This document shows, one piece after another, positions 256 through 57,162 of a stretch of 64,000 nucleotides of DNA. Both the position numbers and the translations under genes were made by a program. The notes below the pieces were generated by a model. It was not told where the DNA came from. It did no database searches and was given only the letters and a program-made list of their open reading frames with translations. Source of the DNA: Cytophagaceae bacterium. Its GTDB lineage: Bacteria > Bacteroidota > Bacteroidia > Flavobacteriales > Flavobacteriaceae. Positions within the stretch are counted from its first letter, which is position 1. Every line of letters begins with the position of its first letter. Location of the stretch: contig PAUP01000046.1 of assembly GCA_002712765.1 (NCBI GenBank), forward strand, positions 1-64,000. The letters are read 5' to 3'.

Positions 256-1254
256 TTAGCCATCGTTTTTAGGACGAACGACAAAGGAATTATTACGCAA
301 ATTTTTTCGGTTATATTCGATGGGTTTTTGAGTGTTTTGATCGATCACTTCAAAACCAACGGCCTCACATACGGCTTGCCCTGCAGCTGTGTCCCACTCC
401 ATGGTTGGCCCAAATCTCGGGTAAAGATCTGCTTTGCCCTCGGCGAGCATGCAAAATTTTAAAGAACTACCCACTTGAAGTAGGTCTACTTTATATCCTT
501 TTTGGGTCAAAGCTTCAATATAGGCCTTAGTTTTATCAGTCATATGAGAAACACTTGATAATACCCGCAATGGCAAAGCTGATTGATGTGCTTTATCGCT
601 GTGCTCTCCCTGCGGTCGTGAACCTCGCAAGCTCGGTGTATCGCTGGGCTCTCCCGCTGGTCGTGAACCTCGCAAGCTCGGTTTATCGCTGGGCTCTCCC
701 GCTGGTCGTGAACCTCGCAAGCTCGGTTTCGCGGAAGCGTTATGAGAATCGTTTAATGGTAGATAGGAGTTAGATATTCCATAAAGTGGAATTGCCTTTT
801 GGGTGATAGATGCTTTTATTTCATCAAAAATATCGATGGCAACACGTATAGCAGTTTGTGTTTTGGTATCCCCTAGATATAACATTTTAATCGTAGGTAC
901 ATAAATGATCCCGAAAACTGGTTTGGCATTTTCGATCAAAGCAATATTAACGGTAAATTCGCCGGTCTTTTTTACGAACTCTTTGGTGCCGTCTAAAGGA
1001 TCTACAATCCAACAGCTTTTCCAATGTGACCTTTCCTTGTATTCAGGTAGATATTCTTCTTCACTTAAGATTGGAATTTGTGTCTTTTCTAAATATGAAT
1101 TGATAATGGTCCTTGCCTTTTTATCGGCCTCGGTAATGGGAGATTTATCTGCTTTAAACAACACCTCAAAAGAACGCTCATACACATCGATTATAGGCTT
1201 TCCAGCCTGTATTGCAGCTTCAATGGCAGGCCAAATATGTGATTCAATATACAT
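256..1254 (-). CDS. cysQ: 3'(2'),5'-bisphosphate nucleotidase CysQ carrying a 45-residue repeat insertion
   Basis: An inositol-monophosphatase-fold phosphatase expected to hydrolyse 3'-phosphoadenosine 5'-phosphate with magnesium in the cytoplasm. Visible motifs are SEEE at residues 64-67, the metal-binding DPLDGT at 85-90 and the second motif WDTAAG at 287-292. The protein has 332 residues, whereas CysQ usually has about 250-270. Most of the excess is residues 177-221, three tandem 15-residue units (KPSLRGSRPAGEPSD-like) encoded by a 45-bp DNA repeat. The insert is in frame and lies between the two catalytic motifs, presumably in a surface loop. It sits 48 bp after rfbD in the polysaccharide operon, a common place for cysQ in Bacteroidota. 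Confidence 0.9.
   Translation of the reverse strand: MYIESHIWPAIEAAIQAGKPIIDVYERSFEVLFKADKSPITEADKKARTIINSYLEKTQIPILSEEEYLPEYKERSHWKSCWIVDPLDGTKEFVKKTGEFTVNIALIENAKPVFGIIYVPTIKMLYLGDTKTQTAIRVAIDIFDEIKASITQKAIPLYGISNSYLPLNDSHNASAKPSLRGSRPAGEPSDKPSLRGSRPAGEPSDTPSLRGSRPQGEHSDKAHQSALPLRVLSSVSHMTDKTKAYIEALTQKGYKVDLLQVGSSLKFCMLAEGKADLYPRFGPTMEWDTAAGQAVCEAVGFEVIDQNTQKPIEYNRKNLRNNSFVVRPKNDG
604..738. repeat. Three tandem copies of a 45-bp repeat inside cysQ
   Basis: Units start at 604, 649 and 694 and are each exactly 45 bp. The core reads GGTCGTGAACCTCGCAAGCT followed by CGGTTTATCGCTGGG. Units two and three are almost identical; unit one has CCCTGC instead of CCCGCT. The third unit runs into a degenerate form of the GCTTTCGCGAAAGC palindrome (725-738). 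Because 45 is divisible by three, all copies keep the cysQ frame open. A diverged version lies at 21900-21976. Confidence 0.9.
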
Positions 1255-13671: not shown

Positions 13672-13709
13672 CATAAAAAAAACACCATATTACAAGCATA
13701 TGGTGTTTG
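13672..13709 (-). terminator. Rho-independent terminator of the RNase P RNA gene
   Basis: On the minus strand the stem AAACACCATAT/ATATGGTGTTT is followed by a run of T (the A-run at 13675-13682 on the plus strand). It lies immediately after the 3' end of rnpB. Confidence 0.8.
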
Positions 13710-13711
13710 TG

Positions 13712-14012
13712 AATAACAAATCTATAAGCCGGATTCTGTATTCTACCTAGAGAATTCTTATCATTTATCTGGATGATTTATTGCTAAATCATTCTAGCTG
13801 CCTACCCTCCCACAACGCACGGGTCGCACTTAACTGTGGGTATACTTGACATTGCACCGCATAGAGTTTACCTGGTTTCACTACAGCATGATCTGTACAT
13901 TCTTTCTGTTGCACTGGTCCTCATCTTTCGATGGACGGGGGTTACCCGCTATACTACCCTTTGGTGTCCGGACTTTCCTCCATTTGTAAACAAACAGCGA
14001 TAAGACGATTTG
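13712..14012 (-). ncRNA. rnpB: RNase P RNA, bacterial class A
   Basis: The catalytic RNA that matures tRNA 5' ends. On the minus strand the 5' region has GGAGGAAAGTCCGGACACC (13967-13985), the conserved P4/CR-I block. The 3' region reads ACAGAATCCGGCTTATAG (13724-13741), the conserved CR-V end. The terminal P1 helix can be closed by CAAATC (14007-14012) and GATTTG (13717-13722). The roughly 300-nt size suits Bacteroidota. It is convergent with rsmD and fills most of the gap 13570-14082. Confidence 0.95.
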
Positions 14013-14017
14013 TATGG

Positions 14018-15407: not shown

Positions 15408-17005
15408 TATGATTTTATAATTTTTAAAGATTGATTTTGAGAAGGTGTCACTAATCGCGAGATATACACCCCACTAGCCAAATGACTAATATCGATCAAC
15501 TCTAGGTCCGAAGTGATGTGTTGTTGCAAAACTTGTTTCCCTACCATATCGTATAGCAACAGCGTGGCTTTGGCTACATTTTGAGGTAAGCGCACTTGAA
15601 ATTGCTGTTGTACAGGATTGGGATAGACGTCATATGCTTTCGCGAAAGCGGGATCTTCAACACTTAATAAGGTCTCTAGCAATTGACCAAAATCAGGAAT
15701 ACCATACCCTAATTGAGGCGTAGGATTGTCGTAAGTACTACTCACCGCTCTGATTAATTGCATCATCTCTGCATTGGTTTTTTGAGGAAATGATTGCCAG
15801 ATACTCGCTATAGCCCCTGCCATAATGGGCGAACTAAAACTCGTTCCGTTACTTGTGGTGACCGCGCCAGAAGCGTTAATCACAGTAGCAGACTGACCTT
15901 TGGCCATCACATCAGGTTTGACCCGACCATCACTTGAAGGGCCTATACTACTAAAACTGACATAATCGCCATTACTATCGACAGCGCCTACGGTAAAAGC
16001 CCCAACGGCATCTGCAGGTGCTGTGATCATATCGGCACCATCATTACCTGCACTAGTGACTACCATCATTCCTTTTTCAAATGCGAGGGTAGCTCCTCTA
16101 GAAATAAATGCGGTCTGACCATCCATATCTTGATAAGTATAACTGTAATTGGGATTGTCAAAAGTACGATAGCCCAAGGAGGTATTGATAATGTCTACCC
16201 CCAAACTATCGGCACGCTCTGCGGCTTCTACCCACAGGGCTTCTTCTAGGGGTGTTTCGCTATTGGTATCTTCTGTTCTAAAACAATAAATAAAGGCATC
16301 AGGGCCTGTTCCTACAAACTGATCTTGTACAAAGCCAGCGATATTACTCACCACTCTCGTCCCGTGATCGCTACCCGTAAAGGCAAACTCATCATCAGAT
16401 CGATCTACAAAATCATAACCATCGAGTAAGCGGCCATTGTCTCTAATACGCGCAAAACCCGCCTGGGTATTTACCCCAGAAAATCCAGAATCTAACACCG
16501 CTACAATCATACCATTACCGGTATAATCCTGTTGGTGTACTTCATCTATTGACAGCATGGTCACTTGATTTTCGGTATCCCCGTAAACAAAGTCTATACG
16601 CTGTTGCGGTGCCATTTTTTGAGATGGGGTGACAGCCATAGAACGGTTGAGTGAACGATCGGCGTATTGAATATCACTGACAAAATCCAAATCCCATAAA
16701 TCATTGATATCTTCTTCTCCTCCTCTGACATAGACACAATTAAACCATTTCGACTTGGCATATACCGTGATATCAGGTTGATCTTTGATCTCGTCAATAT
16801 AGGCCTGAGTAACCGGCACATCGCGCTCGTCAATAGGTGTAGCGTGCATTCCCTTGCGGTCTATAGCTTCTTGGGTTAAAATACTAATAGGGTTGTCAAT
16901 ACTTTGCTGGACATTTTCCTTATCGGTAAAATAAACCCAAGCATCTTGTTGCGCACATAGTGTCACAGGAAGTAATAGCAGTATAAATAGGACTCTTCTC
17001 ATCAT
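15407..17005 (-). CDS. Secreted subtilisin-like serine protease with T9SS sorting tail
   Basis: An S8 family protease of 532 residues. A signal peptide covers residues 1-19 (ends VTLCAQ), a propeptide-like region follows, and the catalytic triad is D172 (AVLDSGFSG), H214 (GSDHGTRV) and S389 (NGTSFSSP), with oxyanion N321 in SAGND. After residue 455 a type A T9SS C-terminal domain begins (YDVYPNPVQQQFQVRLP, ending SLKIIKS), so export by the Por system is expected. The linker before it contains AFAKA, encoded by the palindrome at 15636-15649. It shares a base with the nitronate monooxygenase-like gene and may be co-transcribed with it. Confidence 0.93.
   Translation of the reverse strand: MMRRVLFILLLLPVTLCAQQDAWVYFTDKENVQQSIDNPISILTQEAIDRKGMHATPIDERDVPVTQAYIDEIKDQPDITVYAKSKWFNCVYVRGGEEDINDLWDLDFVSDIQYADRSLNRSMAVTPSQKMAPQQRIDFVYGDTENQVTMLSIDEVHQQDYTGNGMIVAVLDSGFSGVNTQAGFARIRDNGRLLDGYDFVDRSDDEFAFTGSDHGTRVVSNIAGFVQDQFVGTGPDAFIYCFRTEDTNSETPLEEALWVEAAERADSLGVDIINTSLGYRTFDNPNYSYTYQDMDGQTAFISRGATLAFEKGMMVVTSAGNDGADMITAPADAVGAFTVGAVDSNGDYVSFSSIGPSSDGRVKPDVMAKGQSATVINASGAVTTSNGTSFSSPIMAGAIASIWQSFPQKTNAEMMQLIRAVSSTYDNPTPQLGYGIPDFGQLLETLLSVEDPAFAKAYDVYPNPVQQQFQVRLPQNVAKATLLLYDMVGKQVLQQHITSDLELIDISHLASGVYISRLVTPSQNQSLKIIKS
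15636..15649. repeat. Palindrome GCTTTCGCGAAAGC, copy 1
   Basis: Exact copy, read AFAKA in the linker between the S8 catalytic domain and the T9SS tail, a tolerant position. Confidence 0.9.
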
Positions 17006-20784: not shown

Positions 20785-21816
20785 TTAGGATTGTTGTTTA
20801 AGGATCGCTTTGTTGATGTCTTTGATAAGACCCGGACCTTCATAAATAAAACCGGTATAAAGTTGTACAAGCGTTGCCCCAGCATTGAGCTTGTCTAAAG
20901 CATCCTGTGCCGTATGAATTCCTCCTACACCAATAATTGGAAAGGACTTCTGGCTGTTTTCTGAAAGATATCTTATTACTCGAGTAGAGCGATCGGTGAT
21001 GGGTTTACCACTTAGTCCTCCATTACCTATTTCTTCTAATCGGACCTGAGGGGTTTGTAAACCCTCCCGCGATGTCGAAGTATTACTCGCGATAACCCCA
21101 TCGAGCTTTGTTTGTTGTACCAAATCAATAATTTCGTCAAGTTGATTGTTATTAAGGTCTGGAGCTATTTTTAAGACAATAGGTCTTTGTACTGCATAAG
21201 ATTGATTGGCTTTTTGTACAGCTTGAATAAGCTCGACCAAATAATCTTTGTCATTTAACTTGGCATGACTCGATACATTGGGACAGCTCACATTGAGCAC
21301 AAAATAATCAACGTATTCATGTAAGGCGTGAAAACACGTTAAATAGTCTTCGGTATAGTGTTCTGGAGCGGTATCGGTATTCTTGCCAATATTTCCTCCC
21401 AAAAGCACGCCCTTGTTCTTTTTTAATCTTGGTATGGCATCGGCAACACCAAGATTATTAAACCCCATTCTATTAATCAAACCCTCGTCTTGGGTCAAAC
21501 GAAATAAACGCTTTTTGGGATTACCCTTTTGACCTTTTGGCGTTAGTGTTCCTATCTCAATAAAACCAAAGCCAATGGCACTTAGCTCATTGTAAAGCTT
21601 GGCATCCTTATCAAAGCCAGCAGCAAGACCTACTGGATTTTTAAATGTCAATCCAAACACCTCTCTTTCTAGTCTAGAATCGTCTAGCTTGCCCCATCGC
21701 GAAATAAGACCTCCTAGCCCCCATTTATACAATCTTCGAATCCAGGCAAAAGTAAAATAATGCACCTTTTCAGGATCAAATTGGAAGAGTAATGGTCTAA
21801 TTAAGCTTTTGTACAT
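20785..21816 (-). CDS. pyrD: Dihydroorotate dehydrogenase (quinone), class 2
   Basis: Oxidises dihydroorotate to orotate with quinone as acceptor, at the inner membrane. I start at ATG 21814-21816 ([20 protein letters not shown]), giving 343 residues and the class 2 membrane-associating helix. The open frame extends 50 codons upstream, but that part is translated 45-bp repeat DNA and is not PyrD-like. FMN and substrate motifs are [47 protein letters not shown] (catalytic Ser), IASNTST and GVGGI. It is convergent with the FAS1 gene. Confidence 0.93.
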
Positions 21817-22164
21817 ATCCAGGAGTTTCTGGGATGCAAAAGTAATTGAAAAAGCCTTAATTTTGAAGAGAAATGTAGGATAGCTGTATCGCCCTTGCCA
21901 AATCGAGCCTGCGAGATTCACGACCGTAGGGAGAGTAAAGCGGTAAATCGAGCCTGCGAGATTCACGACCGTAGGGCACGCGCCGTAAAATGCTACGTGG
22001 TGTAATCGTTTTTATTTGTTTTTGTCTCATTAGGCAATTCAATAGGCAGCTCAAATGTGTAAATGCAGTATAAATACCTAGAAGATTAAACCAAAGTATT
22101 AATTTATACCAAGACACACTCGAAGTTTTTTACGGGTAATATCAAAAAGACAAAACAAGCACTC
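21817..22164. other. Intergenic region between divergent pyrD and pepT, with 45-bp repeats
   Basis: 348 bp without a convincing gene. It contains the repeat block 21900-21976 and probably the promoters of both divergent genes, though I see no clean TAnnTTTG match. The open frames across it are low-complexity translations of the repeat. Confidence 0.6.
21900..21976. repeat. Two diverged copies of the 45-bp repeat, second one truncated
   Basis: Unit one is 21900-21944; unit two, from 21945, keeps 32 bp and breaks off into a GCACGCGCC sequence. Read on the minus strand the units give CGGTCGTGAATCTCGCAGGC and match the cysQ-internal repeat at roughly 35 of 45 positions by eye. The two units here are identical to each other over 32 bp, so the array was amplified or converted locally. 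Confidence 0.85.
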
Positions 22165-23412: not shown

Positions 23413-25116
23413 ATGCACATTAAAGATACAGAAAGACGATGGTGGAAAGAAGGCATCGTATACCAGATTTACCCCAGAAGTTTTAAAGATGCCAATGGTG
23501 ATGGCATAGGTGATTTACAGGGGATTATAAGCAAACTAGATTATATTGCTAGTTTGGGAGTAGATATTATATGGCTCAATCCTGTCTATGATTCTCCCAA
23601 CGATGACAACGGATACGACATTAGGGATTATCGCAAAATCATGGACGATTTTGGGACTATGGAAGATTTTGACAGGCTATTGGCGGGTATGAAGTCTAGA
23701 AATTTGCGTCTTATCATGGATCTAGTGGTCAATCATTGTAGTGATGAACACCAGTGGTTTCAAGAATCTAAAAAAAGTAGAAGCAATCCCTACCGCGATT
23801 ATTTTCACTGGTGGCCTGCAGAAAAAGGCTTACCGCCCAAACGCTGGAGCTATTTTGACGTGGCTGAGAATGCTTGGGCTTATGATAAGACCACCGATGC
23901 CTACTACTTGCATTATTTTGCGGTAAAGCAACCCGATTTAAAATGGGAGAACCCCAACCTGAGACGTGAAATCTACGATATGATGCATTTTTGGTTTCAA
24001 AAAGGGGTCGATGGGTTTAGAATGGATGTCATCCCGTTTATTAGTAAAGACACCTCTTATCCTGAAATTGATGCACAAGAGCCACATGAATATATCGCAT
24101 ATTATGCTAACGGTCCTCAAGTGCACACCTATTTGCATGAGCTCAATAGAGAAGTAGTCTCGCAATACGATGCCTTTACCGTGGGTGAAGGTCCGGGTAT
24201 TTCAATTGACCAAGCCTTAGATTTTGTAGATCAAAAGCGCCAAGAAATCGATATGTTCTTTCATTTTGATTTAATGTCCCTCGATCGCAAACCTGGCGAA
24301 GTTTTTACCATGCGCGAAGATGCCTGGACCCTACCCGAGTTTAAAAAAATATTTTCTGATTGGGATACCGCTTTCGCGAAAGCGGGATGGGGCAGCTTAT
24401 TTTTGGCCAATCACGACTTTCCGCGTGCTGTTAGCCGTTGGGGTAATGACTCCCCTGAACATTGGCGCAACAGTGCTACTCTTTTGCACACCTTTTTATT
24501 GACCATGCGCGGAACACCTTATTTTTATCAGGGTGATGAAATTGGTATGACCAACGCCTATTTTGATCATATTGATGACTATAGAGATATCAATACCATC
24601 AACCGATATCAATTACTGCAAAACAGCAATGGTGATCTCGAGCGCTTTATTGAAAACGAAAAGTACGCAGCACGAGAAAATGCTCGTACTCCTATGCAAT
24701 GGGATAGTTCACCACACGCTGGTTTTACGAGCGGCACACCTTGGATCAAGGTAATACAAAATTACAAGGAAGGCATAAATGTGGCGGCGCAAGAAAAGGA
24801 CAAACATTCGGTTTTGGAATATTTCAAGGAAGTGGTAGCGCTTAGAAAATCCAATCTCACCTTAGTTTACGGAGCCTATGAATGCCTCAATCCTGATGAT
24901 GAGCAGGTATATGCCTATTTGCGTACATCTACTACAGAACGGATTTTGATACTGCTCAATTTTAGCGACACCGTTGCTCATTACGTGTTACCTGCTCATG
25001 TATCATACAATAGGATTAAAAAACTCATTTCTAACGATAAGATTCTTGATGATACCACTTATAAGGAATTTAGATTATATCCTTGGCAGGCAATTGTGTA
25101 CGAATTAGAAAAATAA
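23413..25116 (+). CDS. GH13 alpha-glucosidase (oligo-1,6-glucosidase type)
   Basis: 567 residues from ATG 23413; the in-frame TTG at 23407 is a less likely start. No signal peptide, so cytoplasmic. GH13 regions: DLVVNHCSDEHQWF (region I), GFRMDVIPFISKD (nucleophile Asp), TVGEGPG (acid/base Glu) and ANHDFPRAVSRWG (region IV, NHD). QIYPRSFKDANGDGIGDLQGI near the N-terminus and the ARTPMQWD segment point to the alpha-glucosidase/oligo-1,6-glucosidase subfamily. Residues around 320-324 (AFAKA) are encoded by the palindrome at 24370, just before region IV. It should hydrolyse short alpha-glucans; exact linkage is not readable. Confidence 0.92.
   Translation: MHIKDTERRWWKEGIVYQIYPRSFKDANGDGIGDLQGIISKLDYIASLGVDIIWLNPVYDSPNDDNGYDIRDYRKIMDDFGTMEDFDRLLAGMKSRNLRLIMDLVVNHCSDEHQWFQESKKSRSNPYRDYFHWWPAEKGLPPKRWSYFDVAENAWAYDKTTDAYYLHYFAVKQPDLKWENPNLRREIYDMMHFWFQKGVDGFRMDVIPFISKDTSYPEIDAQEPHEYIAYYANGPQVHTYLHELNREVVSQYDAFTVGEGPGISIDQALDFVDQKRQEIDMFFHFDLMSLDRKPGEVFTMREDAWTLPEFKKIFSDWDTAFAKAGWGSLFLANHDFPRAVSRWGNDSPEHWRNSATLLHTFLLTMRGTPYFYQGDEIGMTNAYFDHIDDYRDINTINRYQLLQNSNGDLERFIENEKYAARENARTPMQWDSSPHAGFTSGTPWIKVIQNYKEGINVAAQEKDKHSVLEYFKEVVALRKSNLTLVYGAYECLNPDDEQVYAYLRTSTTERILILLNFSDTVAHYVLPAHVSYNRIKKLISNDKILDDTTYKEFRLYPWQAIVYELEK
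24370..24383. repeat. Palindrome GCTTTCGCGAAAGC, copy 2
   Basis: Exact copy, read AFAKA in the alpha-glucosidase, about 11 residues before the NHD motif. Confidence 0.9.
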
Positions 25117-25524: not shown

Positions 25525-26715
25525 ATGAAAAAAATGCTTTTATGTGCAGCAGCACTTTTCGCAGGGACCGTAGCTTTTGCTCAGTCTAACACTAGTGCTG
25601 TATTACAGACTGGTAGTGGCAACTCATCTAATGTCGCTCAAACTGGATTGATGAACAACTCTGACGTGAATCAATTAGGAGATGGTAATACTGCTATCGT
25701 TGATCAGGATGGAACAACCAATGATTCTGACAAGGATCAAATCGGGAATGACAACCAGTACAGAACAACGCAAGACGGAACAGACAACACCGCTACGACT
25801 TACCAAGAAGGTAACCGTAACTTAGGTGGTGGTTCTTCTTTGATTTGGGGTACGTACCAAACTGGTACAAACAACAACGCAGATACACAATCTGTAGGTG
25901 ATGACAACAACGCTGGTACGCGTCAAGACGGTACAGACAACCAGTCTGACATAAACCAAGATGGTAACGGAAACGTTGCTAACGGTGGTTTCTGGGGTGT
26001 TTACCAAACTGGTGATCGTAACAACGCTGATGTTGATCAAGTAGGTAACGACAACACTATGAACAACCTTCGTCAAAACGGAGCAGACAACCAATTTAAA
26101 ATTACTCAAACTGGAGATAACAACTTCGCAAGTTCTGAGCAAATTGGTGATCGTAACTTAGGTGGTGGTTTATCTCTTATCTGGGGTATCAACCAACAAG
26201 GTAACGACAACACTGCTACAAACTCTTCTGTAGGTGATGACAACAACTCAGGTTCTGGTCAGTACGGAGATTTTAACAACGGAGTTATCGAGCAAGTTGG
26301 TAACAACAATGACGCTAACGGAGGTTTCTTTGGAAACTACCAAGTAGGTAACAGCAATGATGCTTACATTGGGCAGTTTGGAGATTTCAATGACGCTCAA
26401 AACACTTCTATTGGAGATAACAACGTTGCTTCTACTACTCAAGATGGAAACTCTAACGTGAGTACTACAAACCAAAACGGAGACATGAACAACTCTGACG
26501 TAGATCAAATTGGTGATACTAACAACTCTGACGTTGATCAGATTGGTGATTCTAACGGATCAATTGTATTACAGGACGGTCTTTCTAACATGAGTACTGT
26601 TCTTCAAGATGGTAACTCTAACATGAGTAATGTTTCTCAAACTGGAACAACTCACGTGAGTACTGTTACTCAGTTAGGTAACGGAAACGGATCTATCGTT
26701 ACTCAAAACAACTAA
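25525..26715 (+). CDS. Curlin-repeat (CsgA-like) amyloid fibre protein
   Basis: 396 residues with a signal peptide (residues 1-20, ending AFAQ). The rest is built of Gln/Asn/Gly/Asp-rich units of the curlin pattern QxGxxN, mostly 11 or 22-23 residues apart. Hydrophobic inserts interrupt the ladder at 99-109 (NLGGGSSLIWG), 153-158 (NGGFWG), 211-221 (NLGGGLSLIWG) and 265-270 (NGGFFG), so the middle is a duplicated 112-residue superunit. No T9SS tail is present. It is expected to be secreted and polymerise into surface amyloid, as CsgA does, but csgBEFG-like genes are not in this window. Confidence 0.85.
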   Translation: MKKMLLCAAALFAGTVAFAQSNTSAVLQTGSGNSSNVAQTGLMNNSDVNQLGDGNTAIVDQDGTTNDSDKDQIGNDNQYRTTQDGTDNTATTYQEGNRNLGGGSSLIWGTYQTGTNNNADTQSVGDDNNAGTRQDGTDNQSDINQDGNGNVANGGFWGVYQTGDRNNADVDQVGNDNTMNNLRQNGADNQFKITQTGDNNFASSEQIGDRNLGGGLSLIWGINQQGNDNTATNSSVGDDNNSGSGQYGDFNNGVIEQVGNNNDANGGFFGNYQVGNSNDAYIGQFGDFNDAQNTSIGDNNVASTTQDGNSNVSTTNQNGDMNNSDVDQIGDTNNSDVDQIGDSNGSIVLQDGLSNMSTVLQDGNSNMSNVSQTGTTHVSTVTQLGNGNGSIVTQNN

Positions 26716-28181: not shown

Positions 28182-29774
28182 CTATACTTTTTTTTTGGGG
28201 TGTACAACAGGAGAAGGAGCTGCTATAAATTTCTCTAAAACTTTATCCATGCAATTAATACCATCTATCGCTGCAGACATAATTCCACCGGCATAACCTG
28301 CTCCTTCGGCACAGGGGTATAATCCTTTGACCTCAACGTGCTCGAGCGTGATTGGATCTCTAGGAATGGCCACAGGAGAAGATGTGCGGCTTTCTGGAGC
28401 GTGTAAGACGGCATCATTGGTAAGATACCCCTTCATGGTACGCCCAAAGGTGAGAAATGCCTTTTTTAACCGCTTTGCGATTAAGGGGGGCAGTACCGTA
28501 TTTAAATCGACACTCACAATTCCGGGTTGATAGGAGGTTTTTGGAAAGCTTTTAGAAACCGTTCCATTTATAAAGTCTCTCATACGTTGGGCAGGGACCG
28601 CCTGAGTTTTTCCGGCAGCAATCCAACAATCGTGTTCGACCTTTTTTTGAAAATCTAAACAGACAAATGGATTGTCTTTACGATAATTGGGTAAATTTTC
28701 TGGTTGCACACTTACCACAATACCAGAATTGGCATAGGGGTTATCCCTTTTACTAGGACTCCATCCATTGGTCACTACCTCATCTTGTGCGGTGGCGCAA
28801 GGCGCAATAATACCACCTGGGCACATACAAAATGAATATACCCCCATACCGTCTATTTGTGCTACAAGGCTGTAGGATGCTGGTGGTAAATAAGGATTGT
28901 CACCATCGCTGTGATATTGTATATCATCAATAAGCGATTGTTGATGTTCTACTCTTACCCCTAGCGCAAAGGGTTTGGCCTCTATTTTTACACCTCTTTT
29001 GTGTAGGAGATAAAATATATCGCGTGCCGAATGACCTGTTGCTAAAATAACCGTATCAAAAGAGTGCCAGGTATCTCCATTGATTTCTATGGCATTTATA
29101 GTATTGTTTACCACTTTGAGATCTGTCAACTTATGCTCAAAACGCACCTCCCCTCCTGCCGCGATAATGGCCTCGCGTATTTGGGTAATGATTTTGGGTA
29201 GTTTGTTGGTGCCAATATGAGGGTGAGCATCGACCAAGATTTCTGGAACTGCGCCAAAATGCACCAACCACTCTAAGGCTTTTAATACATTGCCCCGCTT
29301 TTTTGAGCGGGTGTATAATTTGCCGTCAGAGTAAGTTCCTGCCCCACCTTCGCCAAAACAATAATTCGATTCTGGGTTGACCAAGTGTTCTTTATTGATG
29401 GCGGCAAGATCTCGTCTACGGGCTCTCACATCCTTACCGCGTTCAAAAATGATAGGTTTAAGCCCTCCTTCAATAGCGCGTAAGGCAGCGTATAATCCTG
29501 CAGGTCCAGCACCAATAATCGCAATTTCTTTGGCTTGTGATACCTCTTGCGCTTCAAAAGGTGGGATGTCTTCTTGCGCTTCTCCTTTTTTAAAAAATTG
29601 AATCTGAAGTGATATTTTAACTGGTGACTTCCTAGCATCAATACTGCGCTTACGAATACGCCAGGAGGCCACTTCTTCTGCGCGTAATTTTGCTTTCGCG
29701 AAAGCGAGCTCTGCAATAAAATCGGTGTCTTCTACCTGATGAGGCAACACATTTATTTGTACAAGTATGGACAT
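28182..29774 (-). CDS. Uncharacterised FAD-dependent dehydrogenase (COG2509-like)
   Basis: 530 residues. An N-terminal 90-residue domain precedes the FAD-binding IAIIGAGPAGLYAALRAIEGG (about 88-108). Downstream come GEGGAGTYSDGKLYTRSKKRG and PHIGTNKLPKIITQIREAII, then VILATGHSARDIFYLL, and at the end LYPCAEGAGYAGGIMSAAIDGI. These are the landmarks of the COG2509 family, whose substrate is not known. AFAKA near residue 24-28 is encoded by the palindrome at 29692. It is convergent with ndh, with 14 bp between stops. Confidence 0.85.
   Translation of the reverse strand: MSILVQINVLPHQVEDTDFIAELAFAKAKLRAEEVASWRIRKRSIDARKSPVKISLQIQFFKKGEAQEDIPPFEAQEVSQAKEIAIIGAGPAGLYAALRAIEGGLKPIIFERGKDVRARRRDLAAINKEHLVNPESNYCFGEGGAGTYSDGKLYTRSKKRGNVLKALEWLVHFGAVPEILVDAHPHIGTNKLPKIITQIREAIIAAGGEVRFEHKLTDLKVVNNTINAIEINGDTWHSFDTVILATGHSARDIFYLLHKRGVKIEAKPFALGVRVEHQQSLIDDIQYHSDGDNPYLPPASYSLVAQIDGMGVYSFCMCPGGIIAPCATAQDEVVTNGWSPSKRDNPYANSGIVVSVQPENLPNYRKDNPFVCLDFQKKVEHDCWIAAGKTQAVPAQRMRDFINGTVSKSFPKTSYQPGIVSVDLNTVLPPLIAKRLKKAFLTFGRTMKGYLTNDAVLHAPESRTSSPVAIPRDPITLEHVEVKGLYPCAEGAGYAGGIMSAAIDGINCMDKVLEKFIAAPSPVVHPKKKV
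29692..29705. repeat. Palindrome GCTTTCGCGAAAGC, copy 3
   Basis: Exact copy, read AFAKA on the minus strand near the N-terminus of the COG2509-like protein. Confidence 0.9.
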
Positions 29775-35223: not shown

Positions 35224-38025
35224 ATGCAACAAGACATTTCGGCGGTAAATCCTAAAGAAAATATCATCATAAAGGGTGCCAAACTTCACAATTTAAAAAA
35301 TATAAATGTCGTCATCCCTAGAAACCAATTGGTTGTCGTAACGGGGCTTTCTGGTTCAGGAAAATCAAGTTTAGCTTTTGACACCCTATATGCCGAAGGA
35401 CAGCGCAGGTATGTAGAGAGTCTGTCGTCTTATGCCAGACAGTTTTTGGGTCGTCTAAATAAACCCAAGGTCGAATATATCAAAGGTATCGCCCCTGCTA
35501 TAGCCATCGAACAAAAAGTAAATAGTACCAATCCGCGTTCTACAGTAGGCACTACCACAGAGATTTATGATTATCTCAAATTGTTATTTGCGCGTATCGG
35601 CAAGACCATCTCTCCTATTTCGGGTAATGAGGTTAAAAAAGATACCGTTGCCGATGTGGTTGATTATGTAAACGCTTTCGCGAAAGCGCAAAAATTACTA
35701 TTACTGGCCCCTGTACACTTAGAAGAAGGCCGAAAATTAGAAGATAAATTAAAAGCCCTTTTACAACAAGGCTACGCCCGTATCAAGATTAAGGATACTG
35801 TCAAACGCCTAGATGCCTTGGATGATGCATTAAAAGGTGTTGCGTTTAGCGATATTTTTTTGGTGGTAGATCGCATCGTGACCAATCCAGGTGACGACGA
35901 TTTTAGCAATAGGCTAGCCGATGCCGTGCAAACCGCGTTTTTTGAAGGTAAGGGAACTTTATACATCGAAGAACTGGCTTCGGGAGAGCAACGTCAATTT
36001 TCTAATAGCTTTGAACTGGATGGGATGAGCTTTTTAGAACCCAATGTGCATTTGTTCTCCTTTAACAATCCGTATGGCGCTTGTCCTACCTGCGAAGGGT
36101 ATGGAGATGTTATAGGGATCGATGAAGATTTGGTGATCCCCAATACAGGTCTGTCGGTTTATGAGAATGCGATATTTCCGTGGCGGGGTGACAGTATGAG
36201 TGCCTACAGAGATGCCTTGGTCAATTCGGCCTATAAATTTGACTTCCCTATTCACAAACCCTATTTTGAATTGACAGAAGCCCAAAAACAATTGATCTGG
36301 GATGGCAATTCTCATTTTAAAGGATTGCATCAGTTTTTTGCCATGCTTGAAGCCAAAGCCTATAAAATTCAAAACAGAGTCATGCTCTCGCGTTACCGTG
36401 GCAAAACCAAATGTCAAACCTGTAAAGGAAAACGCTTGCGTCCCGATGCTAGTTATGTGCATATAGGAGGAAAAACCATACTAGATCTTGTGACCTTACC
36501 TCTAGACGAAGTGGCTGCCTTTTTCAAACAATTGAGCTTGAGCGAGCATGATGCGACGATTGCAAAACGTTTACTACAAGAAATAAACAGTCGTTTGGAG
36601 TTTCTATCAAAAGTGGGACTTACCTACCTCACCCTCAATCGCAAATCCAATACGCTTTCTGGGGGAGAATCCCAACGTATTAATCTTGCAACTTCCTTAG
36701 GTAGTAGCCTGGTTGGCTCTATGTATATTCTAGACGAACCCAGTATAGGTTTACACCCCAAAGACACCGAAAAGTTAATTGAAGTCTTGGCTTCGCTTCG
36801 TGATCTGGGCAATACTGTTATCGTGGTAGAGCATGACGAAGACATTATGAAAGCCGCCGATACCATAATTGATATTGGTCCAGAAGCAGGCACTTTAGGC
36901 GGGCATGTGGTGGCCTCGGGTAGCTATAAAGATCTTTTAAAAAGTAAATCGCTAACGGCCCAATACCTCAATGGCAATCTAGAAATAGCCGTTCCTAAAA
37001 AACGCAGAAGTACAGATTGGTATATCGATATAATTGGAGCACGAGAAAACAATCTCAAAAATATTGATGTTCGGTTTCCTTTGGGTGTATTTACAGCTGT
37101 TACTGGAGTTTCAGGAAGTGGTAAAAGTACGCTGGTCAAAAAACTACTCTATCCCGCCTTATTAAAAGCTGTAGGTGGCTATGGGCAAAAAGCGGGTCAG
37201 TTTACCGAGATTAAAGGCAAATATGATCTAATTAAAACGGTAGAATTTGTAGATCAAAATCCTATTGGGCGTTCTTCGCGTTCTAATCCGGTAACCTATA
37301 TCAAAGCCTACGACGATATCCGTAAACTTTATGAAAGTCAAAAGCTGAGTAAAATCAGGAATTACAAGACCAAACATTTCTCCTTTAATGTAGACGGAGG
37401 TCGCTGTGAGACTTGTAAAGGAGAAGGTGAAGTGACTATAGAAATGCAATTTATGGCCGATGTGCACTTAGAATGTGAAACCTGTAAAGGCAAACGTTTT
37501 AAGAAGGAAATTCTCGAAGTTACTTTTCAAGATAAAAATATCGACGATATCCTCAATATGACTATTGATGATGCTGTTGCCTTTTTTGAAGCGCATCAAG
37601 AATCTAAAATTACACGTAAACTCAAACCGCTTCAGGATGTTGGGCTGGGTTATGTTACCTTAGGTCAAAGCTCTTCTACCCTATCTGGAGGCGAAGCCCA
37701 ACGTATCAAACTTGCCTCATTTCTAGTAAAAGGAAACACCAAAGAAAAAGCGCTCTTTATCTTTGATGAGCCTACGACTGGTTTGCACTTTCACGATATC
37801 AAAAAGCTATTGGCCTCCTTTGAGGCGCTTATTGCCAAAGGCCACAGCATCGTTGTTGTAGAACACAATATGGATCTGGTCAAATGCGCCGATCACATCA
37901 TCGATATGGGACCTGAAGGTGGAAAAAACGGTGGTAATGTAGTAGCCTCAGGCACTCCAGAAGCAGTTGTTAAGCAAAAGTCGTCAATTACAGGTCGCTA
38001 TCTCCAAGAGAAATTGGAAGTGTAA
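35224..38025 (+). CDS. uvrA: Excinuclease ABC subunit UvrA
   Basis: The damage-recognition ATPase of nucleotide excision repair, 933 residues. It has two ABC ATPase modules, Walker [20 protein letters not shown] near 41-59 and [14 protein letters not shown] near 627, and two LSGGE signatures. Zinc modules show as [16 protein letters not shown] and CETCKGEG with CETCKGKRF. Palindrome copy 4 is read AFAKA around residues 151-155, outside the ATPase motifs. It is monocistronic. Confidence 0.96.
35674..35687. repeat. Palindrome GCTTTCGCGAAAGC, copy 4
   Basis: Exact copy, read AFAKA in UvrA within the signature/UvrB-binding region (VNAFAKAQK). Confidence 0.9.
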
Positions 38026-38118: not shown

Positions 38119-38132
38119 GCTTTCGCGAAAGC
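38119..38132. repeat. Palindrome GCTTTCGCGAAAGC, copy 5
   Basis: Exact copy and the only intergenic one, 35 bp before the start at 38167. A TATCTTTA -7-like element follows at 38145-38152, so the palindrome could lie over the promoter of that gene. Confidence 0.9.
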
Positions 38133-39351: not shown

Positions 39352-41067
39352 ATGAAAAAAATATACGCCCTCTTATCGCAATTCTTGTGTTGTTGTACCA
39401 TCATGGCACAAACAGTACTTATTCAAAATGTCACAACCATTGATGTAGAAAACGCAACCGCAACACCAGGTCAATATATACTGATACGCGATGGTTTGAT
39501 CCAGAAAATTTCCGATCGGCCTATATCGGCTCCAAATGCAACCCTGATTGAGGGTAGCAATACATATGTGCTTCCTGGTTTTATTGACACTCATATTCAC
39601 TTTTTTCAGACAGGCAGTTTATACACCCGTCCAGACGCACTCGACATGACTGCCTATGTCCCTTATGAAAAGGAAATGGCCTTTGCTCAAGAATTAGCCT
39701 TTGACAGTTTTAAACGCTATTTGCGCCTTGGGATCACCACAGTGATGGATGTGGGTGGTCCTTTCCAAAATTTTAAAGTAAGAGACCAGATGGCAACCGC
39801 AACGGTGGCACCCAATGTGCTGGTTACCGGGCCTTTGTTTTCGCCTTATCAACCCAAAGCATTTGCTAAACTAGAAGATCAACCTATAGCCAAAATTACC
39901 TCAATTGCAGATGCCGATGCACTGTTTGATCAAATGCTACCTAAAAATCCTGATTTTATAAAAATCTGGTATATCGACAGTCCTGAGACACCAGCGGCCC
40001 AATTTTTTCCTATCGCACAACATATTGCCCAACGCGCACATCAAAACAATCTCAAGCTCGCCGTACATGCCACCCAGCTCAAAACTGCGCGATTAGCGGT
40101 TAAAGCAGGCGCCGATATACTGGTACACAGTGTAGACGATCAAAGGGTTGATATGGCTTTCGCGAAAGCGTTAAAAGACAAGGATGTTTTATACATCCCA
40201 ACACTGATAGTCTCCAACAACTACATCAAAGCCTTTGCTGCACAGCCGGCCGATCACCCACAAGATCTAGCTTTTGCCAATCCAAAAGCGTACGGCAGCC
40301 TAAAAGATGTCTTACATTACTCAGAACAAGAACTACCCGCTGTAATACCTATGGTTAGGGACAATTTTGAAATGCTACAACAACGAAATGCTAGAAAAGA
40401 CAGTATCATGTTCAACAACCTAAAGTTTCTTGTAGATCAAGGCGTTCGTATAGCTACTGGTACAGATGCCGGCAATATCGGTACTATGCATGCCGCTTCC
40501 TATTTGCAAGAATTGGAATTGATGCAACAAAGTGGCTTAACTCTTCCTCAAATTTTAAAAGCATCTACTATTGACGCTGCGCATGGTTTTGGTCTAGCAC
40601 ACAAATTAGGAAGTATTAAAGAAGGTAAACAAGCAGATCTTGTCTTATATCGCAACAATCCTTTAGAGGCTCTGGCTCATCTCAATAGTATGACCCACAC
40701 CATTGTGGCTGGTAAGGTGCTAGCAGTAAGCAGCTTGATACAAGAAACCCCAGAGCAAATCGTACAACGTCAGCTCAACGCCTATAATGCAAGAGACATC
40801 GAAGCGTTTTTAAACACCTATGCTGATGATATCGAACTGTACAATTTTCCTGATGAGCTGCGCAGTAAAGGAAAACAGGCAATGAGAGAAGGCTATGCCA
40901 GTTTTTTTGAAAACACCAAAGACCTACATTGTGAAATTAAAAATAGAATTGTTCTAGGTAATAAAGTCATTGATCAGGAATACATCACTGCCAATGGCAA
41001 TAATTTTGGTGCTGTTGCCATCTATGAAGTCGATAAAGGAAAAATAGTAAAAGTCACTTTCTTGTAA
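39352..41067 (+). CDS. Exported amidohydrolase fused to a C-terminal SnoaL-like domain
   Basis: 571 residues with a signal peptide (residues 1-19, ending TIMAQ). The amidohydrolase barrel has PGFIDTHIHFF (HxH), the KIWYID segment, AVHAT and LVHSVDD (metal His), GTDAGN (metal Asp), and the closing GSIKEGKQADLVLYRNNPL: the imidazolonepropionase/prolidase-like branch. Residues about 464-571 add a SnoaL domain (IVQRQLNAYNARDIEAFLNT and AIYEVDKGKIVKVTF). Palindrome copy 6 is read AFAKA near residue 269. It may hydrolyse dipeptides or other amides in the periplasm. Confidence 0.87.
   Translation: MKKIYALLSQFLCCCTIMAQTVLIQNVTTIDVENATATPGQYILIRDGLIQKISDRPISAPNATLIEGSNTYVLPGFIDTHIHFFQTGSLYTRPDALDMTAYVPYEKEMAFAQELAFDSFKRYLRLGITTVMDVGGPFQNFKVRDQMATATVAPNVLVTGPLFSPYQPKAFAKLEDQPIAKITSIADADALFDQMLPKNPDFIKIWYIDSPETPAAQFFPIAQHIAQRAHQNNLKLAVHATQLKTARLAVKAGADILVHSVDDQRVDMAFAKALKDKDVLYIPTLIVSNNYIKAFAAQPADHPQDLAFANPKAYGSLKDVLHYSEQELPAVIPMVRDNFEMLQQRNARKDSIMFNNLKFLVDQGVRIATGTDAGNIGTMHAASYLQELELMQQSGLTLPQILKASTIDAAHGFGLAHKLGSIKEGKQADLVLYRNNPLEALAHLNSMTHTIVAGKVLAVSSLIQETPEQIVQRQLNAYNARDIEAFLNTYADDIELYNFPDELRSKGKQAMREGYASFFENTKDLHCEIKNRIVLGNKVIDQEYITANGNNFGAVAIYEVDKGKIVKVTFL
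40156..40169. repeat. Palindrome GCTTTCGCGAAAGC, copy 6
   Basis: Exact copy, read AFAKA (DMAFAKALKD) in a helix of the amidohydrolase barrel. Confidence 0.9.
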
Positions 41068-42493: not shown

Positions 42494-43858
42494 ATGAATT
42501 TTTCTTCATGTATTACGCGCAACTTACAAAATAGCTTGCTTATAACTTTAGTCCTTACCACACTCACTACTACAGCTCAAATGGACCAAAGGATGTATGA
42601 CATAATTGATGCCGTATCTCCCGAGCGCATCAAAGAAGATGTTAAGACCTTAGCCAATTTTGGTACGCGCCACACTTTGAGCGATACGGTTTCTGACACC
42701 CGTGGTATTGGCGCAGCGAGGCGGTGGATTAAAAAAACATTTGAACAAACAGCCTCCAATTGTAAGGGTTGTCTGGAGGTGTTCTACCAGAAAGATTTGG
42801 TGACTAAGGGCACAAACGGTCGTATTTTTAAGGATGTAGAAGTGGTTAATGTGGTGGCTATACAAAGGGGAAGTAAATACCCCAATAGATTTATCATTAT
42901 GAGCGGCGATATCGACAGCCGTATTTCCGATCCAACCAATGCCGTAGACGACGCTCCCGGTGCCAATGACAATGCCAGTGGTATGGCTGGCACTTTAGAA
43001 GCAGCGCGCGTTCTTTCTCAATACAGTTTTGAAAATAGTATTATGTACGTAGGGCTTTCTGGCGAAGAACAAGGGCTTTTTGGAGGTAAGGGTCTGGCAG
43101 CTTTCGCGAAAGCAAAAGGTTGGGAAATCATCGGTATATTAAACAATGATATGATTGGAAACATCCAAGGCGTCGACGGGGTGATTGACAATAGGAGCTT
43201 TCGTATATTTTCTGAACCCGTCCCTCCTACCGAAACAGAGCGCCAGCGCAGAGCCAGACGTTTTTATGGAGGCGAAGTTGACGGTATTTCGAGGCAGCTC
43301 GCTAGACATGTACATAAAACGGTACAGTCGTATATGCCCGAGATGAACCCTATGATGATCTATCGCTTGGATCGTTTTGGTCGGGGTGGGCATCATCGTC
43401 CTTTTAATGATGCTGGCTATGCAGGTATTCGCATTATGGAAGCTCACGAGAATTACACCCAACAGCATCAAGATATTCGTACCGAAAACGGAATAGCGTA
43501 TGGAGATACCTTTGAGCATGTCAACTTTGGGTATGCAGCCAAGCTCACGGCTGTTAATGCCATTAGTCTTGCAAGTATTGCATGGGCACCTCCTGCGCCT
43601 TTAGAAGTAGGTATAGGCGGTATAGTACAACCCAGTGCCAAGTTTGAATGGACGGCCGTTGATGGCGCTGTTGGATATAAGATTTACTGGCGGGATACCA
43701 CAAGTCCTACCTGGGATCATTCGCGATACGTAGGCGATGTGACCCAATATACTCTAGAAGGTATCGTAGTCGATAATTTCTTTTTTGGAGTGGCAGCCGT
43801 AGGGCCTGATGGGCATGAGAGCATGGTCACTTTTCCCAATACCATCATTAGAAATTAA
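42494..43858 (+). CDS. Secreted M28 family zinc aminopeptidase with fibronectin III domain
   Basis: 454 residues with a signal peptide (about 1-29, ending TTTAQ). Family motifs are GANDNASG (bridging Asp159), GLSGEEQGLFGG (catalytic Glu and ligand Glu), NNDMIGN (ligand Asp) and ENYTQQHQDI (last His). The first ligand position, normally GHxDS, reads GDIDS with Asp139 in place of His. Residues about 365-454 form an FN3-like domain (KFEWTAVDGAVGYKIYWR). Palindrome copy 7 is read AFAKA near 203. It should cleave N-terminal residues from peptides outside the cytoplasm, if the altered site is functional. Confidence 0.87.
   Translation: MNFSSCITRNLQNSLLITLVLTTLTTTAQMDQRMYDIIDAVSPERIKEDVKTLANFGTRHTLSDTVSDTRGIGAARRWIKKTFEQTASNCKGCLEVFYQKDLVTKGTNGRIFKDVEVVNVVAIQRGSKYPNRFIIMSGDIDSRISDPTNAVDDAPGANDNASGMAGTLEAARVLSQYSFENSIMYVGLSGEEQGLFGGKGLAAFAKAKGWEIIGILNNDMIGNIQGVDGVIDNRSFRIFSEPVPPTETERQRRARRFYGGEVDGISRQLARHVHKTVQSYMPEMNPMMIYRLDRFGRGGHHRPFNDAGYAGIRIMEAHENYTQQHQDIRTENGIAYGDTFEHVNFGYAAKLTAVNAISLASIAWAPPAPLEVGIGGIVQPSAKFEWTAVDGAVGYKIYWRDTTSPTWDHSRYVGDVTQYTLEGIVVDNFFFGVAAVGPDGHESMVTFPNTIIRN
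43100..43113. repeat. Palindrome GCTTTCGCGAAAGC, copy 7
   Basis: Exact copy, read AFAKA (LAAFAKAKGWE) in the M28 peptidase between the catalytic Glu and the NNDMIGN motif. Confidence 0.9.
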
Positions 43859-49210: not shown

Positions 49211-50215
49211 ATGAAAATTGCGGTGGTCATATTAAATTGGAACGGACGAGCACTACTAGAAGCCTATTTGCCTTCGGTAGTGACACATTCTCAGGATATG
49301 GCTAGGGTTTATCTCGCCGATAATGCCTCGACAGATGACTCGGTGGCTTTCTGCAAATCCCGCTTTCGCGAAAGCGTAACAATCATACAAAATGCACAAA
49401 ATGGCGGATATGCCAGAGGCTACAACCAAGCCCTGAAAAACATAAAAGCTGATATTTTTGTCTTGCTCAACAGCGATGTGGCGGTTACTCCTGGATGGTT
49501 AACTCCAGTCATAGCAGCGTTTGAAGCTCACCCAGACATTGCAGCGGCACAGCCTAAAATAAAAGACGTAAAGCGAAAAGACTATTTTGAGTATGCAGGA
49601 GCTGCTGGGGGGTTCTTGGACGGTTTGGGATATCCCTACTGTCGCGGCCGTATCTTTGATCGCTGCGAAAAAGATACTGGTCAATACGACAATACTATTG
49701 ATATACAATGGGCGAGCGGTGCTTGTTTGTTTGTACGCTCTCAGGTGTTTTGGGAGGTAGGCGGCTTAGACGAAGACTTTTTTGCTCATCAGGAAGAAAT
49801 TGATCTTTGCTGGCGAATAAAAAATAAGGGACACCGCATCATAGCCTGTGGATCAAGTGAGGTGTTTCACCTTGGTGGTGCGACTTTAGCCGCGGCACAT
49901 CCCAAAAAAACGTTCTACAACTTTAGAAACTCACTTTTTGCCTTGGTAAAGAATGTCTCCTCTCCTAGGGTATTTTTTTGTCTGTTTCTAAGACTAGTTT
50001 TGGATGGCGTAGCTGGTCTAAAATTTTTAACAGAAGGCAAACCTTCACACTTTATGGCCATTATAAAAGCCCATTTTAGTTTTTATGGTTACTTTTTAAA
50101 AATGTGGCACAAACGGGCACAGCAACTTAGCTCAGCGGGGAGCTATTACACTGTAAATAGTATCGTCGTAGCATATTTTATACGGCAGAAAAAAAACTTT
50201 CGCGATCTCGAATAG
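49211..50215 (+). CDS. Family 2 glycosyltransferase
   Basis: 334 residues. The GT-A nucleotide-binding start VVILNWNGRALLEAYLPSV, DNASTDDSV near 38-46 and the DxD-like LNSDVAV near 88 are GT2/rhamnosyltransferase-like. WASGACLFVRSQVFWEVGGLDEDFFAHQEEIDLCWR is the acceptor-side ED motif. The C-terminal third is hydrophobic and membrane-associated. Palindrome copy 8 is read RFRES near residues 51-55. It is remote from the polysaccharide operon; the donor sugar is unknown. Confidence 0.9.
   Translation: MKIAVVILNWNGRALLEAYLPSVVTHSQDMARVYLADNASTDDSVAFCKSRFRESVTIIQNAQNGGYARGYNQALKNIKADIFVLLNSDVAVTPGWLTPVIAAFEAHPDIAAAQPKIKDVKRKDYFEYAGAAGGFLDGLGYPYCRGRIFDRCEKDTGQYDNTIDIQWASGACLFVRSQVFWEVGGLDEDFFAHQEEIDLCWRIKNKGHRIIACGSSEVFHLGGATLAAAHPKKTFYNFRNSLFALVKNVSSPRVFFCLFLRLVLDGVAGLKFLTEGKPSHFMAIIKAHFSFYGYFLKMWHKRAQQLSSAGSYYTVNSIVVAYFIRQKKNFRDLE
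49362..49375. repeat. Palindrome GCTTTCGCGAAAGC, copy 8
   Basis: Exact copy, read in a different phase as RFRES (KSRFRESVT) in the GT2 gene. Confidence 0.9.
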
Positions 50216-56613: not shown

Positions 56614-57162
56614 ATGAAACTTAAATACCTCTTTATTATTGCCCTATTCGCTTTCGCGAAAGCCACCACAGCACAAGTTGATGCTAAAGCGACACCAGGT
56701 GAAGTCATTCCAGATTTTGGGAAGACGTACCTGATCACTGATCCAGATTTTAAAACAGATACTACCCTGACCTTTAAAGCGGTTTTTGATGTATCAAAAG
56801 CTCCAGAAGATCCGGCCCTACGCAATCCCTACATAGAGACTATTGCCCGCTTTTTGAATATGCATCAAAAAGCAGGTGTTCCCATATCACAACTAAAGGT
56901 GCGTATGGCGATGCATGGCCAGGCCTCATATGGCTTACTCAAAAATGAATTTTACAAAGAAAAATTTGGGGTAGACAATCCTAATATCGCCCTTTTAGAA
57001 GCTATAAATAACGCTGGTGTAGACATTATACTATGTGGGCAAACCGCAGGCGCTCGTAATTTACCCGAAGCCCGAAGATTACCCCTTACCCAAATGGCCT
57101 TATCGGCTATGACGATTCTGATACAATCACAAGAAGAGGGCTATCGTATGATCGCTTTTTGA
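56614..57162 (+). CDS. Secreted DsrE-like protein
   Basis: 182 residues with a signal peptide of about 21 residues that contains AFAKA, written by palindrome copy 9, and ends TTAQ. The mature part has the DsrE/DsrF-like pattern: RFLNMHQKAGVPISQLKVRM, then AMHGQASYGLLKNEFY, ALLEAINNAGVDIILCGQTA and QMALSAMTILIQSQEEGYRM. The Cys in ILCGQTA sits where sulfur-relay members carry theirs. It precedes two M20 amidohydrolase genes. The function in this context is unknown. Confidence 0.8.
   Translation: MKLKYLFIIALFAFAKATTAQVDAKATPGEVIPDFGKTYLITDPDFKTDTTLTFKAVFDVSKAPEDPALRNPYIETIARFLNMHQKAGVPISQLKVRMAMHGQASYGLLKNEFYKEKFGVDNPNIALLEAINNAGVDIILCGQTAGARNLPEARRLPLTQMALSAMTILIQSQEEGYRMIAF
56650..56663. repeat. 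Palindrome GCTTTCGCGAAAGC, copy 9
   Basis: Exact copy, read AFAKA inside the hydrophobic core/end of a signal peptide (IIALFAFAKATTAQ). Confidence 0.9.

Follow-up and report, generated by a model that had tools for sequence, protein, structure and literature searches.

Three 45-bp units within a genome-wide palindrome probably account for the insert in a Dokdonia CysQ

The tandem array that interrupts the cysQ gene of contig PAUP01000046.1 is, very probably, a set of guest 45-bp units lodged within one copy of a genome-wide host palindrome. The sequence examined (hereafter, the window) comprises the first 64,000 nucleotides of this contig, and its genome is a further species of Dokdonia, according to the genus placement made by the classification tool. 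The 14-mer of the palindrome, GCTTTCGCGAAAGC, occurs in 369–905 copies per genome in all 18 Dokdonia genomes, and this commoner element, within which the array lies, was missed by the first-pass annotation of the same DNA.

The array-bearing ORF encodes a CysQ-like protein of 332 amino acids with a match to the Pfam family Inositol_P (E = 3.9e-41; Table 1). The array consists of three in-frame 45-bp units at positions 592–726 of the minus strand, and TRF reported a 45-mer in 3.1 copies at 592–729 of the window. On the coding strand, the left half-palindrome GCTTCCGCGAAA is followed by the three units and then by GC, such that the array sits within one copy of the palindrome formed by GCTTTCGCGAAA and GC, which accounts for both the position and the reading frame of the array in cysQ. 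The product of the array, exactly 45 residues (177–221), lies between DPLDGT and WDTAAG; the residues of DPLDGT and MEWDT were invariant in an alignment of 22 sequences that included the window CysQ. The first-pass annotation had described an in-frame three-unit array that adds 45 residues between the two catalytic motifs, as the sequence and TRF bear out; the limits given (604–738) are about 12 bp out of register and include the left half-palindrome. It had also described the array as GC-richer than its surroundings, and the three model matches at the array indeed had GC contents of 0.60–0.63, against 0.41 for the whole window. Modeling of the insert, which the same annotation had proposed, was performed with AlphaFold2: the core of CysQ was predicted confidently, almost all of residues 170–224 had pLDDT values <50, and the insert is modeled as a disordered loop. 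Because the genome is a fragmented draft (107 contigs, 78% complete) with several arrays at contig ends, the unit numbers may be collapsed.

Table 1. Positions of the cysQ array, the second array, and the uninterrupted palindromes in the window
Feature	Position	Strand	Basis
cysQ (3'(2'),5'-bisphosphate nucleotidase family), array-bearing	256–1254	-	Pfam Inositol_P and alignment of 15 Dokdonia orthologues
Left half of interrupted palindrome, GCTTCCGCGAAA (1 mismatch to GCTTTCGCGAAA)	727–738	-	Sequence; position as in other arrays
Unit 1, 45 bp, encoding PSLRGSRPAGEPSDK	682–726	-	Sequence
Unit 2, 45 bp, encoding PSLRGSRPAGEPSDT	637–681	-	Sequence
Unit 3, 45 bp, encoding PSLRGSRPQGEHSDK, last letters AAA	592–636	-	Sequence
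Remaining right arm GC of interrupted palindrome	590–591	-	Sequence; compare OppC and intergenic empty sites
Second window array: two units after a degenerate half-palindrome, between divergent genes	21893–21990	+	R1 match 21893–21950 and 23-mer matches
Uninterrupted GCTTTCGCGAAAGC, coding (AFAKA)	15636–15649		
Uninterrupted palindrome, coding (AFAKA)	24370–24383		
Uninterrupted palindrome, coding (AFAKA)	29692–29705		
Uninterrupted palindrome, coding (AFAKA)	35674–35687		
Uninterrupted palindrome, intergenic	38119–38132		
Uninterrupted palindrome, coding (AFAKA)	40156–40169		
Uninterrupted palindrome, coding (AFAKA)	43100–43113		
Uninterrupted palindrome, coding (RFRES frame)	49362–49375		
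Uninterrupted palindrome, coding (AFAKA, near N terminus)	56650–56663		
Uninterrupted palindrome, coding (AFAKA, near N terminus)	58568–58581		
Uninterrupted palindrome, coding (RFRES frame)	63463–63476		

CysQ was present in 15 of the 17 other Dokdonia genomes (it was not found in G002 and G009). The array peptide was absent from all 15 of these orthologues in the alignment and from all 80 orthologues of other genera, which rules out a native CysQ domain and upholds the earlier interpretation of the repeat as an insertion. In the 80 orthologues from other genera, the corresponding loop was 14–40 residues long (median 25), compared with 80 residues in the window CysQ. The empty site that had been anticipated was recovered as a peptide-free loop in all 15 Dokdonia relatives, but an exact uninterrupted palindrome occurred in that loop in only three of them (G005, G008, and G012), and in another reading frame. 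No palindrome was found anywhere in cysQ in the other 12 relatives, or in the loop at any of the 80 loci of other genera. The palindrome of the three relatives reads LSRK and is located 14 residues ahead of an SRSH motif; the half-palindrome of the window CysQ is located 12 residues ahead of the matching SVSH when the array is excluded from the count. In G011 (L214), the CysQ loop reads SAFAKLS, which is near the palindrome peptide, in a gene without an exact palindrome. An unrelated in-frame repeat, GNQQLVTGNRQPATG-like, was observed in the same loop in L062 (Flammeovirgaceae UBA2371), as if the CysQ loop were a general landing place.

The palindrome is perfect over 14 bp and extends symmetrically (TACGC...GCGTA) to 20 bp in the consensus, TACGCTTTCGCGAAAGCGTA. 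The 14-mer was absent from all 21 other genomes searched alongside those of Dokdonia, as was a backward-read control. Among 299 genomes of the family, 61 had any match to the palindrome; beyond the two Dokdonia genomes in this sample, hundreds of copies were found in three genomes of two genera (578, 664; 408), and the remainder had ≤19. Among 296 genomes of the phylum, 16 matched, all with ≤4 copies except the window's own genome, and the backward control gave ≤1. In 520 kb of G016, there were 141 exact palindromes and 11 with one mismatch, whereas 0.0085 were expected from an order-4 Markov model and 2.1 from an order-5 model, the latter being fed by the motif itself. Several coding palindromes were located 12–16 residues from the N terminus (in G016, near 5025, 34106, 249658, 349482, and 418553; in the window, at 56650 and 58568), where the AFAKA sequence resembles the final part of a signal peptide. 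A near-duplicate stretch with an offset of 16.7 kb, at about 285–322 kb of G016, contained few palindromes.

No viral contig carried the pattern of the element, and an 18-bp form of the palindrome was found in only three IMG/VR stretches (L384–L386), so known viral contigs are nearly free of the palindrome. As positions 1–25000 of the window also had no megablast match in plasmids, a phage or plasmid vehicle was rejected. Small clusters of exact palindromes were observed in a shared gene run in genera without the genome-wide palindrome (L374 in G110 and L378 in G246); these genes appear by eye to encode copper/heavy-metal efflux, and a spacing of 933 bp recurred in five genomes. Donors resembling Dokdonia may have supplied this DNA, the palindrome then being a mark of its origin.

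The order of events was evident in an OppC-like permease, which was matched in all 18 Dokdonia genomes. In the window's genome, an array adds exactly 45 residues to this protein, which is 412 amino acids long, compared with 362–372 in the relatives. The exact 14-mer palindrome was present at the array site in all 16 comparable relatives (G006, with a fragment of only 60 amino acids, was excluded), with variable codons adjacent to it, which makes the units in OppC younger than the palindrome. Intergenic sites differed in the same manner. At one site, G010 had one unit and G014 none, the insert being exactly 45 bp between flanks that were 93–97% identical; at another, G014 and G010 had one unit and G013 none (flanks 72–78%); and at a third, G010 had two units and G014 one. 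The guest site is thus AAA/GCG within the palindrome, occupied in some copies and some species by zero, one, or more head-to-tail units. AAAGCG-like repeats occurred at both ends of the insert, and could be either a target duplication or part of the unit.

The core 23-mer of the array had five matches in the window with ≤3 mismatches (0.00 expected), two of which, at 21903 and 21948, fall in the second array and confirm the report that the same repeat family occurs elsewhere in the window. Beside this array, the minus-strand gene has a likely ATG near 21817 by our reading, and the next gene is at 22165; a mechanically called ORF (20785–21966) continues through the array from a GTG. The 33-bp tandem repeats at 26488–26672 of the window, in the ORF at 25525–26715, appear by eye to be unrelated to the cysQ array. 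When its own genome was searched with the array, 28 matches were obtained at E ≤ 10, of which 24 reached E ≤ 1.3e-6; they represent about 21 places (three arrays were matched twice), and the set is incomplete, the second window array being absent from it. The left array end began with GCTTTCGCGAAA or a near variant in 17 of the 20 cases examined in this genome; degenerate ends were found at L013, L017, and the second window array. Two contig ends, L019 and L020 (G000:C40 and C79), have a flank and an array start in common, and the draft therefore contains arrays that enter the count more than once.

A typical single unit in the relatives has the form TACGCTTTCGCGAAA, 45 bp ending in TAAA, and GCGTA, and removal of the 45 bp leaves TACGCTTTCGCGAAAGCGTA. 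When a sequence model of this 65-bp form (TACGCTTT...AAAGCGTA), built from 17 copies, was applied with a cut-off of E ≤ 0.001, there were at least 150 matches in G010, at least 104 in G014, at least 76 in the window's genome G000 (tandem units being counted separately), and at least 53 in each of G006 and G017; nine of the other 13 Dokdonia genomes had at least 1–9 matches and four had none among the candidates scored, which were capped at 150 for each genome. This spread of copy numbers within a single genus points to recent amplification of the 45-bp unit. Six of 12 chosen non-Dokdonia genomes matched the model at E ≤ 0.01, including G222 with 23 matches. Within the window's genome, units at the same locus were more similar to one another than units at different loci (identity 0.844 versus 0.773; reached in 0 of 2000 label permutations), indicating that some of the growth was local. 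The left half-palindrome contained a mismatch in nine of 17 array ends inspected in this genome (L019 and L020 look like one locus), whereas 28 exact and two one-mismatch uninterrupted palindromes were found in 152 kb; this comparison, between samples that were chosen differently, suggests that the constraint on the palindrome was relaxed after interruption.

ORFs of ≥170 amino acids crossed the element at 17 of the 42 loci examined in Dokdonia and a few other genera, after 11 of 53 loci without the core motif used had been left out; a few of these ORFs may be chance end extensions. At 14 of the 17 loci, the element was read on the same strand in the AFAK frame, yielding peptides of the AFAK-SxxRDSRPxGExS type. 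The search for the family across genomes that the first-pass annotation had recommended therefore yielded a repeat that is patchy between species and located in frame in genes.

Among 119 distinct aligned units, two mini-hairpins were recognized, each with a GA...GA column pair flanking a two-pair stem, and 94.8% of the hairpin cells were paired. Forty-eight cells retained pairing after a change on both sides, compared with 9.9 ± 2.5 after shuffling (0 of 500 shuffles reached this number) and 1–7 when the pairs were slid, the tested pairs having been chosen from this alignment itself. One of the five covariation measures, the number of further pair types, was not in excess (12 versus 11.1 shuffled; 178 of 500 reached), RNAalifold detected no structure in the same alignment, and the folding of one element as a single sequence was similar to that of its shuffles (z = −1.33 as RNA and −0.58 as DNA). 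We infer that the GA columns form sheared pairs. An Rfam scan of five sources identified only RNase P, including the RNase P RNA at 13709–14015 (−) of the window, and no match for the repeat. In some units (L140, L153, L154, L379, and L380), a second palindromic repeat, CCTGCCTGCCGGCAGGCAGG-like, was nested in the first hairpin.

In three genomes, the palindrome accounted for 35 of 36, 30 of 31, and 32 of 34 occurrences of the peptide AFAKA, and nine permuted peptides occurred 0–1 times each. The palindrome in oppC reads AFAKA in the genus of G222 and, at the same place, RFRES in the genus of G042 and G273; in this search of 22 genomes, nine of which had no OppC match, it was absent from ten matched genomes that have no palindrome genome-wide. 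When the sites of G016 were located in G007, 70 of 141 could be placed, of which 50 were exact, 11 degenerate, one ungapped but unlike, six gapped, and two too far apart; in the reverse comparison, 59 of 98 were placed (49, 6, 0, 3, and 1 in the same classes). Several of the non-conserved coding palindromes were ungapped substitutions that left the peptide unchanged, and several intergenic ones were gapped, where insertion and substitution are indistinguishable. These observations imply that the DNA, and not the protein, has been kept.

The palindrome was flanked by A/C-rich sequence on its right side and by T/G-rich sequence on its left. When both orientations were pooled, the right flank was G-poor for about 18 bp in and between genes alike, except at position +8 in genes. 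Of the 327 sites classified in three genomes, 153 were located in ORFs; the density was higher between genes than within them, at 1.89 per kb between convergent, 1.18 between tandem, and 0.93 between divergent genes. The palindromes were about 3.7–4.5 kb apart and are spaced more evenly than chance. Gaps of <1 kb accounted for 3.6%, 3.4%, and 5.2% in 520, 400, and 400 kb of the three genomes, compared with 24%, 20%, and 22% for random sites and 21%, 17%, and 20% in a gene-aware control that combined one site per intergenic gap with random coding sites and relied on crude ORF calls. The coefficients of variation of the spacing were 0.700, 0.739, and 0.626, versus 0.971, 0.962, and 0.964 in the same control (P = 0/3000, 0.005, and 0/3000). 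The number of palindromes showed no clear relation to genome size (Spearman 0.32, P = 0.31; 12 genomes ≥95% complete), as if accessory DNA often lacked the palindrome.

We propose that the first unit entered by being copied into the palindrome, perhaps through template switching directed by the hairpins or by a trans-acting recombinase, and that later units would have arisen partly by local slippage or unequal recombination, given the greater likeness of units that share a locus. The cysQ loop that separates the catalytic motifs would have had a palindrome before gaining its three units, and the palindrome of the three relatives, in another frame, is a candidate counterpart. The guest would survive in genes because its 45 bp correspond to 15 codons that are stop-free in the AFAK frame and because the palindromes were already located in tolerant loops. 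A transposase or recombinase of its own, one that targets the palindrome and generates a 6-bp AAAGCG target duplication, may have moved the guest instead of template switching, and we regard this as a real possibility that falls somewhat short of being probable. The precise 45-bp difference, the fixed site and junction, and the covarying hairpins would be expected of a dedicated transposase, but no Y1 (RAYT/IS200-type) enzyme was found in four of the many-copy genomes: searches for Y1_Tnp (PF01797) detected it in four of 18 genomes (G006, G009, G011, and G015), including two matches in G006, which is also rich in copies, and not in the array-rich G000 (78% complete), G010, G014, or G017. The description of the repeat as mobile or amplifying is therefore supported with respect to amplification, by the patchy counts and the likeness within loci, but not with respect to transposase-driven mobility in these four genomes.

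REP/BIME elements also form hundreds of palindromic copies, some in arrays. They differ in their association with RAYT, the four array-rich genomes having no Y1_Tnp, and the Dokdonia palindrome is, in addition, frequently located in ORFs; a REP/RAYT origin was rejected for these four genomes, but not for G006. In-frame tandem units that are more alike within than between loci are also a feature shared with minisatellites or VNTRs in ORFs, from which the Dokdonia array is distinguished by the recurrence of one unit family at many loci and by left ends that mostly start at the half-palindrome.

Genome statistics suggest that the host palindrome could be a self-DNA mark like a DNA uptake sequence, a reading that we hold tentatively; otherwise, it is a putative chromosome-organizing binding site. 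Like the USS and DUS of Pasteurellaceae and Neisseriaceae, it has hundreds of copies in and outside ORFs and is evenly spaced. The available part of PMC1939737 states that uptake sequences occur in ORFs and more often than expected outside them, and cites their even spacing, but also argues that this spacing is too uneven to serve compaction, so that evenness is disputed within that source; in the same part, the known uptake sequences are not palindromes. The Dokdonia motif is palindromic and, at about 3.7–4.5 kb, more widely spaced than USS, for which the portion of PMC7811141 consulted gives a spacing near 1 kb. In a literature search that covered few subscription papers, no paper contained the palindrome string, none dealt with highly iterated or overrepresented palindromes in Flavobacteriaceae, and, as judged by title, none reported the palindrome in Dokdonia or an uptake sequence for Bacteroidota. 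The available part of PMC5217627, on spaced motifs, makes no mention of the group, and the paper on D. donghaensis DSW-1 refers to added sequence from highly repetitive intergenic and intragenic sequences, unnamed there (PMC4974333).

The nearest known palindrome is HIP1 of cyanobacteria, an 8-mer (GCGATCGC) that, in the part of PMC4390886 available, is highly iterated, has palindrome-preserving extensions, and is linked to methyltransferases. The Dokdonia palindrome likewise occurs far above expectation and has a palindromic extension, and the same part of PMC4390886 describes HIPs as accompanying matching methyltransferases, which would favor a HIP1-type motif whose maintenance depends on a repair system or a cognate DNA methyltransferase and not on uptake. 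We consider this unlikely, although not negligibly so: unlike HIP1, the Dokdonia motif is GCTTTCGCGAAAGC within TACGC...GCGTA, 14–20 bp long, with a G-poor right flank and a C-poor left flank, and it is evenly spaced, a figure obtained for the Dokdonia palindrome alone.

It is improbable that the 65-bp form is itself a MITE-like or RPE-like transposable element, mobilized by a transposase in trans, and that the 14–20-bp palindromes are its deletion remnants. The inverted ends, the patchy copy number, and the AAAGCG-like repeats flanking the insert are compatible with such an element, but the inverted ends are those of the host palindrome, and all 18 genomes have many palindromes, although seven of them have zero or one match to the 65-bp form. 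Moreover, most of the palindromes placed between G016 and G007 were conserved and several non-conserved coding ones were ungapped substitutions; the consensus flanks of uninterrupted palindromes are unlike the unit; and in OppC, with uninterrupted palindromes in all 16 relatives, the array came second. The first-pass annotation had likened the repeat to Rickettsia palindromic elements, which, in the available part of PMC10969869, are small repeats located in frame inside unrelated genes, adding a peptide and keeping the ORF open. The likeness holds for behavior, as the Dokdonia unit lies in frame in protein genes (cysQ and oppC), but membership was rejected on length and host genus, this being a distinction by description: the Rickettsia elements are about 150 bp long, whereas the Dokdonia unit is 45 bp, often tandem, and fixed in place inside a genome-wide palindrome. 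A role of the palindromes in transcription termination or regulation is very improbable, despite their higher density between genes and above all between convergent ones, considering the 153 copies in ORFs and flanks whose composition is opposite to that of a T-run terminator and does not differ between genic and intergenic sites. Misassembly, or contamination in a draft of metagenome-like character, to which the fragmentation and the many arrays at contig ends might point, is practically dismissed by the same element in other genomes, including the single-contig G004 and G222, and by states of zero, one, and two units between relatives.

Returning to guest units within a host palindrome, it is conceivable, although doubtful, that Dokdonia and at least two other genera mark their own DNA with an evenly spaced 20-bp palindrome, which would make it the first palindrome of the uptake-type or chromosome-organizing kind in Bacteroidota, and that a 45-bp hairpin element parasitizes this mark by inserting into it and thereby reaches the interiors of genes in a safe frame. 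The odd insert in one enzyme leads to a two-layer system in a marine genus that can be cultured: an evenly spaced palindrome, and the guest repeat for which it is a landing site. Should the palindrome prove to direct DNA uptake or the folding of the chromosome, gene exchange among marine flavobacteria could be approached through it, and the guest unit illustrates a stepwise gain of disordered loops by proteins, 15 residues at a time.
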